The notes below the pieces were generated by a model. That model searched no databases. It was not told where the DNA came from and saw only the letters and a program-made list of their open reading frames with translations. Source: Acidobacteriota bacterium (lineage in GTDB: Bacteria; Acidobacteriota; Terriglobia; Terriglobales; Acidobacteriaceae). Taken from it: a DNA stretch of 36,160 bases. Positions 6,575 through 35,966 of this stretch are shown in pieces. Positions within the stretch are counted from its first letter, which is position 1; every line of letters starts with the position of its first letter. The translations under genes were made by a program, and so were the position numbers. Where the stretch lies: the NCBI GenBank assembly GCA_003225465.1, contig QIAH01000303.1, positions 16,346 through 52,505 on the forward strand, read 5' to 3'.

Positions 6575-6625
6575 AGAAACCTCTACACTTAAGGCTCCCC
6601 ACGCGACTTCAATAGCCTAGGCTGC

Positions 6626-7003
6626 TCACATATCAAGTGCAGCACGGACCCTTTTGAGCAACAAGTGATGATCGAACGGTTTTGCGAGGAACTCGACTGC
6701 ACCCTCTCTCATCGCTCGAATTCTCATCCTCGCATCCCCATGAGCCGTGATAAAGATGATCGGAACATTGCATCCCTCTTGCTTCAACCTGGCCTGCAAC
6801 TGCAGGCCCGACATCTTCGGCATACGGATATCAAGAACTAGGCACGCAGCCCGAGTATGCAAATCGGATTCGAGGAATTCTTCCGCGGATCCAAAGCACT
6901 GCGCGACCAGCCCAGCCGCTTCCATTAGGTCGCGCAGTGAATCTTGCATGGCCTCGTCGTCATCAATGATTGCTATTAGTTTGGCCATCCGGTTCACCGA
7001 CAT
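6626..7003 (-). CDS. Single-domain response regulator (CheY/FixJ-receiver type)
   Basis: A 125-aa stand-alone receiver. It has the acidic pocket IIDDDEAMQ, the phospho-acceptor Asp in LVLDIRMP, the switch Thr in FITAHG and the conserved Lys in LAKPFDHH. It ends just after the receiver fold with no output domain. The spacing of the pocket and the sequence resemble FixJ/NodW receivers. An alternative start at 6988 (MAKLIAIIDDD) is equally plausible, since neither has a good ribosome binding site. Encoded 51 nt before the receiver-less sigma-54 activator, it may be that protein's detached receiver or a phosphate relay between kinase and regulators. A partial second copy of this gene lies in inverted orientation at the right edge of the window (35978-36160). 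Confidence 0.93.
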   Translation of the reverse strand: MSVNRMAKLIAIIDDDEAMQDSLRDLMEAAGLVAQCFGSAEEFLESDLHTRAACLVLDIRMPKMSGLQLQARLKQEGCNVPIIFITAHGDARMRIRAMREGAVEFLAKPFDHHLLLKRVRAALDM

Positions 7004-31800: not shown

Positions 31801-31890
31801 CTGGGCAGTGTGGGCCGGCTATAAGTTCTAGGGGACGATCGTGGTACAGCCGTTTTGAGAGGGAGGGCCGGCAATGAGCAATCGCAATGT
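31801..31890 (+). repeat. Direct repeat, copy 2: relic of a porin-gene 3' end after the hydrolase
   Basis: Seven nucleotides after the hydrolase stop, codons for WAVWAGYKF and a stop appear, followed by the same trailer as after the porin (GGGGACGATCGTGG, then GCCGTTTTGAGAGGGAGGGC). No porin body precedes it, so only the tail of the gene was copied or survives. Confidence 0.9.
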
Positions 31891-31910
31891 GCTCGGTCGG
31901 CTAATTGTTT

Positions 31911-32603
31911 ATGGCGAACAGTCCAACCACTGAAAAGGTTATACCTTACGCCCTGCTCGGAATGACGGCGGTCACTGGCCTAGTGGACGCCGTCAGTTTT
32001 CTGTCGCTCGGGCGCGTCTTCACTGCGAACATGACCGGGAATATCGTGCTTCTCGCGTTTGCAACAGCGCGCGTATCCGGACTGTCCATCGCACGTTCGT
32101 TAACGGCACTCTTGGCTTTTCTTGTAGGGGCGATACTAGGCGGACGGGTAATGGCTCGGGCGAATGCCGATTCACAGATTCGATTCGCGGTACAAGCATT
32201 CCTGCTGGAGGTGGCCTTTCTGTTTGCTGCGTCGTTTTGCAGCATTGGATACCGAGGCGATTTGCGGGAACATTCTTTTCAGCCATTCGCCCTGATCGCC
32301 TTGACGGCGCTCGCGATGGGCACACGGAATGCCGCTGTCCGGAAACTCGCAATCCCGGATCTGACGACAACGGTCCTGACACTAACGATCACGGGCATCG
32401 GCGCGGACTCTTCGCTCGCGAACGGCAACAACCCGAGATTGGCGAGAAGGGTTGCGTCGATCGCCGCAATGTTTTTGGGTGCGGCGTTAGGGGCAGTTGT
32501 TATACATTATTCGATCTCAGCGGCCCTGTGGCTTGCGACCGCAATCTCCGCCGTGTGCTCTGCAGCGTTGTTCCGATCTGCGCTCACGTCCGATAAGCGG
32601 TGA
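31911..32603 (+). CDS. DUF1275 (YoaK-type) membrane protein
   Basis: A 230-aa protein with about six membrane helices. The opening YALLGMTAVTGLVDAVSFLSLGRVFTANMTGNIVLL is the hallmark of the YoaK/DUF1275 family, and RNAAVRKLAIPDLTTTVLTLTITG is its second conserved block. Function is not established; members are often found beside stress or regulator genes. ATG 31911 (MANSPTTEK) is chosen over the track's TTG at 31905; the ribosome binding site is weak. It begins 20 nt after the second porin-tail repeat. Confidence 0.9.
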   Translation: MANSPTTEKVIPYALLGMTAVTGLVDAVSFLSLGRVFTANMTGNIVLLAFATARVSGLSIARSLTALLAFLVGAILGGRVMARANADSQIRFAVQAFLLEVAFLFAASFCSIGYRGDLREHSFQPFALIALTALAMGTRNAAVRKLAIPDLTTTVLTLTITGIGADSSLANGNNPRLARRVASIAAMFLGAALGAVVIHYSISAALWLATAISAVCSAALFRSALTSDKR

Positions 32604-32986
32604 CCGCGACACTGGGTCCTCATTCCGCGGGGATTTTTCTCGTTGCCCATTGTTCAGCATGTTTGATCATTGATCGCGGAGATAAACTCGAGCAGAGCCG
32701 CGCGAGTCCGATTCGCCGTCCCTCGAGAACATGGACAAATCAAGGACAAAAGCAAAAAGCGCCAGATGGCCGGCCTGTAAGTTCTTGATGAGGTTGGTTG
32801 CGGGGCCCCGATACGTACCAAATAGGCAATTCTTGAGTATTCCGTTCCGCAGCGAATTGGTTCACTACACCGTGTGAGCTTCCCACTGCGATGAGGATTC
32901 GGGATAGTTTCCGTATGGCCGACAATCAGCGAACTGGCGGAGTTTCCGGAAACAAGGGCGCGTTTCTCGGTATCGGTCGGACCGAA
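32604..32986. other. Convergent intergenic stretch, nothing recognised
   Basis: About 380 bp between the DUF1275 gene and the end of the tetR gene. Short ORFs here have no family features. No tRNA, repeat or clear hairpin terminator was found. Confidence 0.5.
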
Positions 32987-33589
32987 TCACTGTGTCTGAA
33001 ACGCGTGAATCACGTTGTCGAAAAGCCTTTTAGCAAAGCCTTTATCAAGCGGAGCGTGACCCTGCAACCATCGGAAGAACAGGGGACCACTAAGCATATC
33101 GATCAACAATTCCGGATCGGTCGTCGGCTTCAGTTCGCCTAAGGCGATAGAGTCTTCAATGATGGCACGTAGGATCTGACGCCTTTGGTTGACATATCTC
33201 TCTAAAAACATCCGTCGGAGTCGCTGGTCCTCATGAATGCCGGTGAGGACGCGTGCCATAACCGTACCCTCTTCAGAGGCCAGAAACTCACTCGCACGCA
33301 GGATGTAGCGGCGAAGCCGCGTCAAACCAGAACCAGTCTCAGGAATCGCGAGAATAGGTTTCATGTGTTCAAAGCAGGCGTCGAACAGGATTTCTTCCTT
33401 CGACTTCCACCAGCGGTATAACGTGGCACTGCTCACGCCGGCTGCCTTCGCTATTTCGTGTGAACCGACAGCGTTGAAACCTTTGTCTCTCAGCAGCTTG
33501 TAAGCGGTTTCCAAGATTTCCTGCTGGGCCTGCTCACTCCGTGGCCGACCACGGGGTCTTGGTGCGATCTTGGTTTTAGGTCCTTTCAT
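32987..33589 (-). CDS. TetR-family transcriptional regulator
   Basis: A 200-aa repressor. The N-terminal TetR HTH spans about residues 18-64 (ILETAYKLLRDKGFNAVGSH, then EIAKAAGVSSATLYRWWKSKEEIL), preceded by the basic PRPRGRPRSEQ common in the family. The C-terminal ligand/dimer domain (RMFLERYVNQRRQILRAIIEDS, LLIDMLSGPLFFRWLQG) resembles TetR_C_6-type regulators. ATG 33589 (MKGPKTK) is preferred over the track's start because it places the HTH at usual distance. It is divergent from the SDR gene, and two matching 17-bp palindromes in the gap are its probable operators, so it likely represses both itself and the SDR unit. Confidence 0.93.
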   Translation of the reverse strand: MKGPKTKIAPRPRGRPRSEQAQQEILETAYKLLRDKGFNAVGSHEIAKAAGVSSATLYRWWKSKEEILFDACFEHMKPILAIPETGSGLTRLRRYILRASEFLASEEGTVMARVLTGIHEDQRLRRMFLERYVNQRRQILRAIIEDSIALGELKPTTDPELLIDMLSGPLFFRWLQGHAPLDKGFAKRLFDNVIHAFQTQ

Positions 33590-33606
33590 CACCACGATTC
33601 CAATTA

Positions 33607-33623
33607 CGAAAATACTTGTTTCG
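33607..33623. promoter_or_regulatory. TetR operator candidate, site 1
   Basis: CGAAAATACTTGTTTCG: CGAAA and TTTCG arms around a 7-nt centre. It shares 12 of 17 bases or more with the site at 33660 and lies 17 nt before the tetR start. Confidence 0.65.
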
Positions 33624-33659
33624 TTTTGCTTTGGCAAGCATCTAATTCGAATGTAGAAA

Positions 33660-33676
33660 TGAAACTATTGGTTTCG
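33660..33676. promoter_or_regulatory. TetR operator candidate, site 2
   Basis: TGAAACTATTGGTTTCG contains the perfect palindrome GAAAC-TATTG-GTTTC. It is 53 nt from site 1 (about five helical turns) and 53 nt before the SDR start, fitting two repressor dimers on one face of DNA. Confidence 0.65.
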
Positions 33677-33729
33677 TATTTATGGGAACTTACGAGCGCA
33701 TAAAACGGTAAGCGTACAGAGGTGGAAAA

Positions 33730-34743
33730 ATGACAAGCACAACGACGAACATATTTGGAGCAACCTCAACAACAGAAGAAGTTTTGTCCGGGACCGATCT
33801 GCGAGGCAAGCGGATTCTTGGGCTTACCACACCATTCGGGTTTCATTCGACAGCGACCGAAGTCGCCGCCGGCGTCGATCTTACGGGCAAGCGCGTCATC
33901 GTGACGGGTGGCGCGGCCGGGATCGGCATCGAGACCGTCCGGACACTGGCGCTTGCGGGCGCCGAGATCACGCTTGCCGTCCGCCGCCCCGACGCCGCGC
34001 GACCGGTTGCCGAAAAGTTGCGCCAGGCCACCGGGAACGCCGCCCTGGAGGTGAGGCCGCTCGACCTTTCGGACCTGCGCTCCGTCCAATCCTTCGTCGA
34101 TGACTGGACAGGACCGCTCCACATCCTGGTCAACAACGCCGGCATCATGGCGGTGCCCGAGCTGGAAAAGACGCCGCAAGGCTTCGAGCTGCAATTCGGG
34201 ACCAACTATCTCGGCCACTTCGCGCTGACGCTGGGGCTGCACCGTGCTCTTGCGGCAGCTCATGGCGCGCGCGTCGTCTCGGTGAGTTCAATCGCGCATC
34301 TCTTCTCCCCGGTGATCTTCGACGACCTGGGTTTCGACTTCGTGCCCTATACGCCCTTCGGCGCCTATGGACAGTCCAAGTCGGCTGCGATGCTGCTGTC
34401 GGTCGGCATAACCCGGAAATGGGCAGAGGACGGGATCCTGTCGAACTCGCTCAACCCCGGAGCCATCGCGACCGGGCTGCAGAAGCACACCGGTGGCCTG
34501 AAAACGCCTGTTGAGCGCCGCAAGACGCCCGAACAGGGCGCGGCGACCAGCGTCCTGCTCGCCGCGTCGCCGCTGCTCGAAGGCATCAGCGGACGGTATT
34601 TCGAGGACTGCAACGAGGCGGAACTGCTCACGAAGCGGCCGGCCGACCTGACGGGCGGCTATGCCGCCTATGCCCTTGATACCGAAAACGCCGACAGGCT
34701 TTGGGATGTGTCGCAGCAGCTTGTCCGGGGGATTGGCGAATGA
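33730..34743 (+). CDS. Short-chain dehydrogenase/reductase, apparent chimera of two SDRs
   Basis: A 337-aa classical/extended SDR. The NAD(P) motif is VIVTGGAAGIGIET, NNAGIMA follows, and the active-site Ser and Tyr-x-x-x-Lys are in VVSVSSIAHL and YGQSKSAAM. The N-terminus is unusual: it begins with one SDR opening (FGATSTTEEVLSGTDLRGKRI) and immediately repeats the theme with a second (FGFHSTATEVAAGVDLTGKRV). The first ~95 bases resemble the local base composition; from about 33830 onward G+C and codon use rise sharply, as in Sphingomonas-like Alphaproteobacteria. I read this as a foreign SDR joined in frame to the start of a resident SDR whose tail remains at 35600-35966. AGAGGTGG precedes the ATG. 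Confidence 0.9.
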   Translation: MTSTTTNIFGATSTTEEVLSGTDLRGKRILGLTTPFGFHSTATEVAAGVDLTGKRVIVTGGAAGIGIETVRTLALAGAEITLAVRRPDAARPVAEKLRQATGNAALEVRPLDLSDLRSVQSFVDDWTGPLHILVNNAGIMAVPELEKTPQGFELQFGTNYLGHFALTLGLHRALAAAHGARVVSVSSIAHLFSPVIFDDLGFDFVPYTPFGAYGQSKSAAMLLSVGITRKWAEDGILSNSLNPGAIATGLQKHTGGLKTPVERRKTPEQGAATSVLLAASPLLEGISGRYFEDCNEAELLTKRPADLTGGYAAYALDTENADRLWDVSQQLVRGIGE

Positions 34744-35597
34744 CCGACGTCAGCAATCAGCGGGTCGGGTTCGTCGGGCTCGGCGACCAAGGCGGCCCGA
34801 TGGCCCTGGCGATCGTGGAGGCGGGCTTCCTTCTTCACGCCTGGGCCAGGCGGGCACAATCCTATGACGCCCTGGGCGGCGCCGCCTTCGAGCGGCACGA
34901 CGATCTGGCGTCGCTTGCCCGCGCGGTAGACGTGCTGGCGCTCTGCCTGCGCGACGATCAGGACATTCGCGATCTCATCGAGCAGCATGGCTTGCTCGAT
35001 GCCCTTCGGCCCGGTGCGACGGTGGTGAACCACGGGACGGGCGACCCCAAGGAGAACGAGCGTATCGGCGCGGCGTTCGCCGCTCGGGACGTGCGCTATC
35101 TCGACGCGCCCGTGAGCGGCGGACGGCCCGGCGCGGTTGCGCGCACACTGACCACGATGGTGGGTGGCGAACAGAGCGCGTTCGATCGCTGCCAGCCGAT
35201 ATTTGACAGCTTCTCGCGCAAGGTCGCTCACATGGGACCGGTCGGGACCGGCCAACTCGCGAAGCTGCTCAACAACGCGCTTACGATGACCAACCTAAAG
35301 AACGCGGCCGACGTGTTCGGGCTCGCGCACCAGCTCGACATCGACCTTCCCCAATTCCAGGACCTGATTGCTGTCAGCAGCGGATCGAGCGCCATTCTAG
35401 AGGCGATCGGTACGCAGATCGACGCGACTGCCGCCGCACACCTCCAATCCCTCATGCGGAAAGACATAGAGCACTTTGCCGATGCGATCCGCGACCGGGG
35501 GTTCGACCCCTCCGAAGTTCGCGCCAGGGGGCTTGGCGGCGCCGACGCCGTTGTTGACCTCGCCAACAAGCTTGCCCAGCGTGCGGACGCCTTATGA
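34740..35597 (+). CDS. NAD(P)-dependent beta-hydroxyacid dehydrogenase-like protein (3-hydroxyisobutyrate/6PGDH family)
   Basis: A 285-aa dehydrogenase. The N-terminal Rossmann motif is VGFVGLGDQGGPMALAI, the substrate-binding signature is LDAPVSGGRPGA, and the catalytic Lys lies in GTGQLAKLLNNALT, with a normal helical C-terminal domain. The substrate may be a beta-hydroxyacid or a related aldehyde/imine; it cannot be told here. ATG 34740 overlaps the SDR stop by 4 nt (ATGA), so both are translationally coupled. Base composition matches the G+C-rich part of the SDR, and together they look like one transferred block. Confidence 0.92.
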   Translation: MTDVSNQRVGFVGLGDQGGPMALAIVEAGFLLHAWARRAQSYDALGGAAFERHDDLASLARAVDVLALCLRDDQDIRDLIEQHGLLDALRPGATVVNHGTGDPKENERIGAAFAARDVRYLDAPVSGGRPGAVARTLTTMVGGEQSAFDRCQPIFDSFSRKVAHMGPVGTGQLAKLLNNALTMTNLKNAADVFGLAHQLDIDLPQFQDLIAVSSGSSAILEAIGTQIDATAAAHLQSLMRKDIEHFADAIRDRGFDPSEVRARGLGGADAVVDLANKLAQRADAL

Positions 35598-35598
35598 T

Positions 35599-35966
35599 CC
35601 ATTCTTTGCCGCAAGGGGCGGCAACTTCAGTATGGGCCGCGGTGGTTGCACCGGCCTACGAGGTCGGCGGACAGTATTGCAGAACTGCCACGTAGGCAAA
35701 ATAGTTCCAGATGATTCAATTCAAGACCATTCCGCAAGACGCGGCAACTTCAGTATGGGCCGCGGTGGTTGCGCCGGCGGACGAGGTCAACGGACAGTTA
35801 TTGCGAGAACTGCCACATGGGAAAAATAGTTCCAGGTGATGTGACTATTGCCGCGGTCAGCGAAGGTGTGCGCAGTTATGCTCTTGACCCGAAAAACGCC
35901 GAGGCACTCTGGAAGAAAGGCGAAGAAATGGTCGCAGAATCGTTCCAACTCTCTCGACAGAAGTGA
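35599..35966 (+). pseudogene. Broken 3' end of a resident SDR gene with internal tandem duplication
   Basis: Pieces of an SDR C-terminus can be read across frames: AATSVWAAVVAPA-EV-GQ, then YCENCHMGKIVPGDVTIAAV, then GVRSYALDPKNAEALWKKGE, ending at a stop at 35966. The first part occurs twice, 123 nt apart. In copy 1 one base is missing in the TGCGAGAAC segment (TGCAGAAC); in copy 2 an extra T is present (CAGTTATTGC). Both are thus frameshifted. There is no SDR start or catalytic core in front, only the end of the foreign dehydrogenase. Composition is like the rest of the window, so this is probably the severed tail of the gene whose first 30 codons now open the chimeric SDR at 33730. Confidence 0.8.
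35611..35845 (+). repeat. Two tandem copies of a 123-bp unit
   Basis: The unit beginning GCAAG, then GCGGCAACTTCAGTATGGGC, recurs at 35734 after exactly 123 nt (41 codons). The first ~100 nt match closely; the last 20 diverge. Confidence 0.88.

Follow-up and report, generated by a model that had tools for sequence, protein, structure and literature searches.

A foreign module of two genes, encoding an SDR and an HIBADH-type oxidoreductase, has very probably replaced part of a resident SDR gene in the genome of a soil-type acidobacterium, by illegitimate joins that fused the foreign SDR in frame, at its 5′ end, to the opening of the resident gene. The window analysed here (36,160 bases) is the 3′ end of a 52,505-base contig, C95. 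The partial 16S rRNA gene of the host has 90.2% identity to that of Edaphobacter aggregans over 623 bases compared, and several other loci have 70–74% DNA identity to the same species; on these sequences we take the host to be a relative of Edaphobacter, an acidobacterium of the class Terriglobia. The locus is no new system but a clean, well-preserved case of a type of event already known. Both edges of a cross-phylum capture are preserved: the join at the foreign start is in frame, the module is whole, and the half of the resident gene that was cut off can still be read beside it. Most transferred genes come without a promoter that is functional in the new host, and the locus offers a natural test case for how foreign operons gain expression and for whether regulated promoters serve repeatedly as landing places. 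Its features, in window coordinates, are:

32987–33589, minus strand: TetR-family regulator, divergent from the hybrid gene (ATG at 33589; PF00440, E 2e-14; PF16859, E 2e-24)
33606–33624, no strand: putative TetR operator 1, ACGAAAATACTTGTTTCGT, a 19-bp palindrome kept in genome G391 and in E. aggregans
33659–33677, no strand: putative TetR operator 2, ATGAAACTATTGGTTTCGT, a 19-bp palindrome kept in the same two genomes
33719–33725, plus strand: ribosome binding site (RBS) GAGGTGG, 4 nt before the ATG, read from the sequence
33730–33819, plus strand: resident SDR leader, start codon and codons 1–30, from profile scores and DNA identity
33819–33823, no strand: 5′ junction, last resident-like and first foreign-like codon; the resident profile stops at residue 30 and the foreign profile (position 4) starts at residue 32
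33820–34743, plus strand: foreign SDR, whole except for its first 2–3 codons, in-frame fusion to the leader, from profile scores and amino acid identity
34740–35597, plus strand: HIBADH-type oxidoreductase (3-hydroxyisobutyrate dehydrogenase), complete (PF03446, E 9e-39), with an ATGA overlap with the SDR stop
35598–35608, no strand: 3′ junction, at most 11 nt past the HIBADH stop; DNA is resident-like again from 35608–35609
35609–35714, plus strand: C-terminal end of the resident SDR, copy 1, frameshifted by the loss of one base; 76% DNA identity to the intact paralogue on contig C156
35715–35966, plus strand: C-terminal end of the resident SDR, copy 2, running to the stop, frameshifted by the gain of one base; 72–73% DNA identity to intact genes

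The hybrid ORF (33730–34743, 337 aa) has two SDR openings in succession. A profile of the resident family, built from 22 SDRs of the host's class, matches it twice, at residues 7–30 (profile 3–26) and at residues 34–332 (profile 3–321), as the preliminary description had proposed. By profile scoring, residues 1–30 belong with the resident family (29.2 bits versus 17.9 for the foreign family) and residues 31–337 with the foreign family (527.3 bits versus 207.9 for the resident one). The DNA of the leader is 74–77% identical to intact genes of E. aggregans and of the same genome, and the alignment stops at ATTCT (33814–33818). The earlier observation that the first opening is of local composition and that the second leads into G+C-rich sequence covering the next gene was borne out by windowed G+C and GC3 comparison: GC3 is 0.47 in the leader, 0.80 in both block genes and 0.44–0.66 in their neighbours, and the SDR–HIBADH pair has 66% G+C in a window of 55%. 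Other 1,780-bp windows have a mean G+C of 0.551 (sd 0.014, maximum 0.582) compared with 0.66 for the block, and the two best change points, 33847 (range 33782–33883) and 35670 (range 35550–35699), bracket the block in agreement with the profile borders. The mosaic, the family assignments, the intact ORFs and the conservation of the operators are thus established at the level of sequence.

The foreign family does not natively have residues 1–32; its members open with M-x-R-L-TTPFGF or alike. The nearest upstream start codon lies 4–6 codons before TTPFGF in 63 of 80 members, and an in-frame stop is found within 30 codons upstream in 39 of the 80. The foreign start codon would correspond to codon 29 of the hybrid, so that the 5′ join cost little beyond that start codon.

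The foreign SDR carries an adh_short domain (residues 54–253; 100.1 bits against a Pfam cut-off of 26.6), with the TGxxxGxG cofactor motif and the catalytic Ser, Tyr and Lys in place; T59, G60, G64, G66, S187, Y213 and K217 are invariant among 43 aligned sequences. PRK06196-like SDRs (NF004845) are the top NCBIfam model for both the hybrid (314.8 bits) and the resident paralogue (328 bits), but both fall under the curated cut-off of 414 bits and the hybrid has in addition its 30-residue leader. By its sequence the second gene of the block is a member of the 3-hydroxyisobutyrate dehydrogenase superfamily, with NAD_binding_2 (133.5 bits, cut-off 21) and NAD_binding_11 (38.8 bits, cut-off 30) domains and the motifs DAPVSGG and GQLAKLLNN. 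It shares these domains with the 3-hydroxyisobutyrate dehydrogenase/tartronate semialdehyde reductase family, of which relatives have been solved (e.g. 3w6u, 3obb), but it scores far under every equivalog cut-off (TIGR01692, 114.8 versus 291.6 bits; TIGR01505, 123.3 versus 340.75 bits). The pair is a recurring two-gene unit elsewhere: the order SDR then HIBADH occurs at 13 of 80 relatives' loci and was seen in Tistlia, Microvirga, Polaromonas, Pseudomonas, Hymenobacter, Ktedonobacter and actinobacteria, in one case (Micromonospora) with an identical 4-base overlap.

In a tree, the block SDR is nested within Pseudomonadota as sister to Lichenifustis and Glacieibacterium (support 100/91), with 81% amino acid identity to the Lichenifustis protein, and the sole acidobacterial member, from E. 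aggregans, is placed elsewhere, apart from it. At E ≤ 1e-90 no close homologue turned up in 298 further genomes sampled from the host's class, nor the block itself in sampled relatives of the host. As part of the whole explanation preferred here, a lineage related to Alphaproteobacteria is the very probable source of the module. The nearest SDR relatives, in Lichenifustis and Glacieibacterium, have no HIBADH neighbour, and searches of about 600 genomes from the orders of these two genera, run without a positive control, gave no closer HIBADH at E ≤ 1e-80. No near-identical donor was found. A phage origin was rejected, since comparison with 50,697 phage records gave a single short match of 75%, and so was a plasmid donor: the best plasmid match covers the SDR alone (74% DNA identity, Polymorphobacter megaplasmids), and the best HIBADH in that search, from Microvirga terrae, is 58% identical.

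How the block came to lie within SDR remains was considered from its edges. The preliminary description had invoked a homology-assisted insertion, in which recombination between two SDR genes positioned the block. The openings of the leader and of the foreign SDR are indeed alike, the tail likewise derives from an SDR and the two proteins are 41% identical; however, at the 5′ join the two sequences are out of register by about 27 residues, the block has no exact match of more than 12 nt with resident SDR genes, and the 3′ join comes after the second gene, which is not an SDR. Since two SDR openings are left rather than one, guidance by SDR similarity is very unlikely in our estimate, and this part of the earlier account is not supported; joins without long homology fit best.

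The hexamer ATTCTT occurs at both edges of the block (33814–33819 and 35601–35606), and two further explanations draw on it. In homology-facilitated illegitimate recombination, described for transformable bacteria, foreign linear DNA of about 1–2 kb replaces a resident stretch with the help of short shared words, the pattern being a gain and a loss of about 1 kb each, helped by 3–10 bp of microhomology (PMC3240628). One end would then have been a long-homology anchor, now host-like, and the other a microhomology, with a deletion of similar size. The 1.8 kb foreign insert, the resident deletion of about 0.7 kb and the short shared words fit this pattern (PMC3240628), but the block shows no homologous anchor, so that membership cannot be claimed, and a 6-mer is shared between random 20-mers of this window in 5% of draws. 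We consider it a possible special route inside the preferred explanation, with which it is not mutually exclusive. The same hexamer could instead be a 6-bp target duplication left by transposition of a cassette into an already deleted pseudogene. Neither a transposase nor terminal inverted repeats were found, the hexamer is within chance and a prior deletion would be required, which makes transposition extremely improbable.

A broken SDR tail directly after the block had also been described, as the end of a different SDR. The tail is there, but it consists of two frameshifted direct copies and comes from the leader's own family, not from a third or unrelated SDR: copy 1 scores 64.8 bits with the resident and 19.4 with the foreign profile, and copy 2 scores 126.5 and 43.9. 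An intact resident-family gene lies elsewhere in the host genome (C156), and an intact gene of E. aggregans (C11) holds both pieces, matching the leader at 74% and the tail at 73% DNA identity; this equal divergence suggests that leader and tail once formed a single gene. About 226 resident codons are missing between them (profile positions 26 to 253). The claim of a foreign block within a resident SDR therefore stands, but as a replacement and not as a plain insertion.

The two tail copies are 89–90% alike and lie 123 nt (41 codons) apart, and their frameshifts nearly coincide in position. Copy 2 keeps about 17 bases that are missing from the 5′ edge of copy 1, which suggests that the tail duplication is older than the capture. 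These copies, and the additional 5′ resident sequence of the second, would also be expected had the module entered between or within tandem resident SDR genes, with later deletions fusing the first leader and leaving two tails. A spacing of exactly 41 codons also fits a simple in-frame duplication within one gene before the capture, and two tandem SDR genes were seen in no relative at this locus; such a stepwise origin, a route compatible with the preferred explanation, seems to us rather unlikely. That the block genes are intact next to a decaying tail fits selection on the block, but is only suggestive, as the frameshifts may predate the capture. In another genome of the family (G033, L012:1501–1659) we came across an isolated broken C-terminal end, 64% identical, of the resident-type SDR; no SDR reading frame of at least 80 aa precedes it.

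The host genome is a 6.15-Mb draft of 590 contigs (95% complete, 2% contamination), and the contig ends 194 bp beyond the resident SDR tail, so that the block lies close to a contig end. Such a setting could give rise to an assembly or binning chimera. This would need two wrong joins 1.8 kb apart, both within the remains of one gene family, and one of these joins would have to hit the foreign start in frame, with at most 12 nt of shared sequence to confuse the assembler; we judge it very unlikely.

Under the preferred explanation, that is replacement through illegitimate joins, a complete SDR and HIBADH module from a lineage related to Alphaproteobacteria would have entered the acidobacterium and taken the place of resident SDR codons 30 to about 253, with a non-homologous (illegitimate) join at either end. 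The 5′ join would have hit the foreign SDR's own start, by chance in frame. Translation of the foreign SDR would then start at the resident ATG, served by the resident RBS, so that the protein carries a disordered leader of 30 residues; ATGA coupling would take translation on into the HIBADH gene. The divergent TetR probably controls transcription through the two palindromes, the putative operators, and the severed resident tail, duplicated beforehand, would be decaying as untranslated DNA. The route of entry, expression, control by TetR and any benefit to the host are what we infer from this arrangement.

Translation from GAGGTGG-AAAA-ATG would add the 30-residue leader. No other start codon with a good RBS lies 5′ of the foreign part, the alternatives being only TTG at codon 19 and GTG at codon 58, the latter already within the cofactor-binding strand. 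In a structure model of the hybrid (mean pLDDT 92.3, pTM 0.90), residues 31–337 form a confident SDR fold (pLDDT above 90 on average) and residues 1–28 are disordered (pLDDT below 50, a low value partly expected, as nearly all aligned rows are without the leader). The model thus suggests that the leader need not harm the enzyme. The module has likely captured a regulated promoter, an RBS and a start codon, to judge from the two putative TetR operators upstream, which are kept in relatives. Promoter capture is an established route to activity for transferred genes (PMC11111574, a review citing Li and Bock 2019 and Anderson and Roth 1978), in which a gene without a usable promoter is put under a resident one by illegitimate recombination or deletion. 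The present locus resembles that situation, but is a natural case, involves a translational and not merely a transcriptional fusion, and has a divergent TetR regulator.

That the block took over a TetR-controlled promoter and its RBS, as had been proposed, is plausible, with two matching palindromes kept in relatives. Each of the two recurs at its corresponding place next to the orthologous TetR genes of G391 and E. aggregans, which have 85% and 70% DNA identity, respectively. An operator consensus has two matches in the window, both of them these palindromes, where 0.07 are expected; as the consensus was derived from the same two sites, this speaks to their uniqueness and not to their function. 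A divergent TetR gene together with conserved palindromes in the shared intergenic region argues for a TetR-controlled divergent promoter.

Intact genes of the resident family exist in the same genome and in E. aggregans, as noted above, but an uninterrupted SDR or empty site at the same locus was not found; the TetR regions of G391, G513 and E. aggregans precede other DNA. With neither an empty site nor a near-identical donor, the event cannot be rebuilt base by base. In G391 (L158:3194–4002) the TetR gene and both palindromes are 85% identical to window 32976–33715; the match stops at 33715, before the RBS, and is followed by a classical SDR of another sort (MKRLDNKVAIVT...), with which that contig finishes. 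One presumably regulated promoter stands before different SDRs, the MKRLDNKVAIVT SDR in G391 and the leader with the foreign module here. On this comparison, TetR and its operators might be a docking platform where illegitimate joins time and again exchange the oxidoreductase and leave the control region in place, a reading that we hold to be rather unlikely.

Several further matches concern this end of the window. Positions 32799–33289, covering the 3′ half of TetR and what follows it, are 96.5% identical to G513 (L159:5607–6095), a genome of another genus; the match breaks inside TetR and looks like a recent transfer or a remnant. A DUF1275 gene (31859–32613) is 89% identical in G513 (L168:6516–7271) in a different neighbourhood, and with this difference in placement the window end resembles a patchwork. 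The response-regulator-like fragment at the contig end (35978–36160) is a 91% inverted copy of 6623–6804, a stretch that G513 has at 93%. In E. aggregans the operator region next to the TetR orthologue has a second, inverted copy on another contig (L043:7014–7121 and L152:5593–5700, 91% identical); this additional copy lies about 900 bases before a hydratase-like gene, and a distant relative of the foreign SDR is found on its contig.
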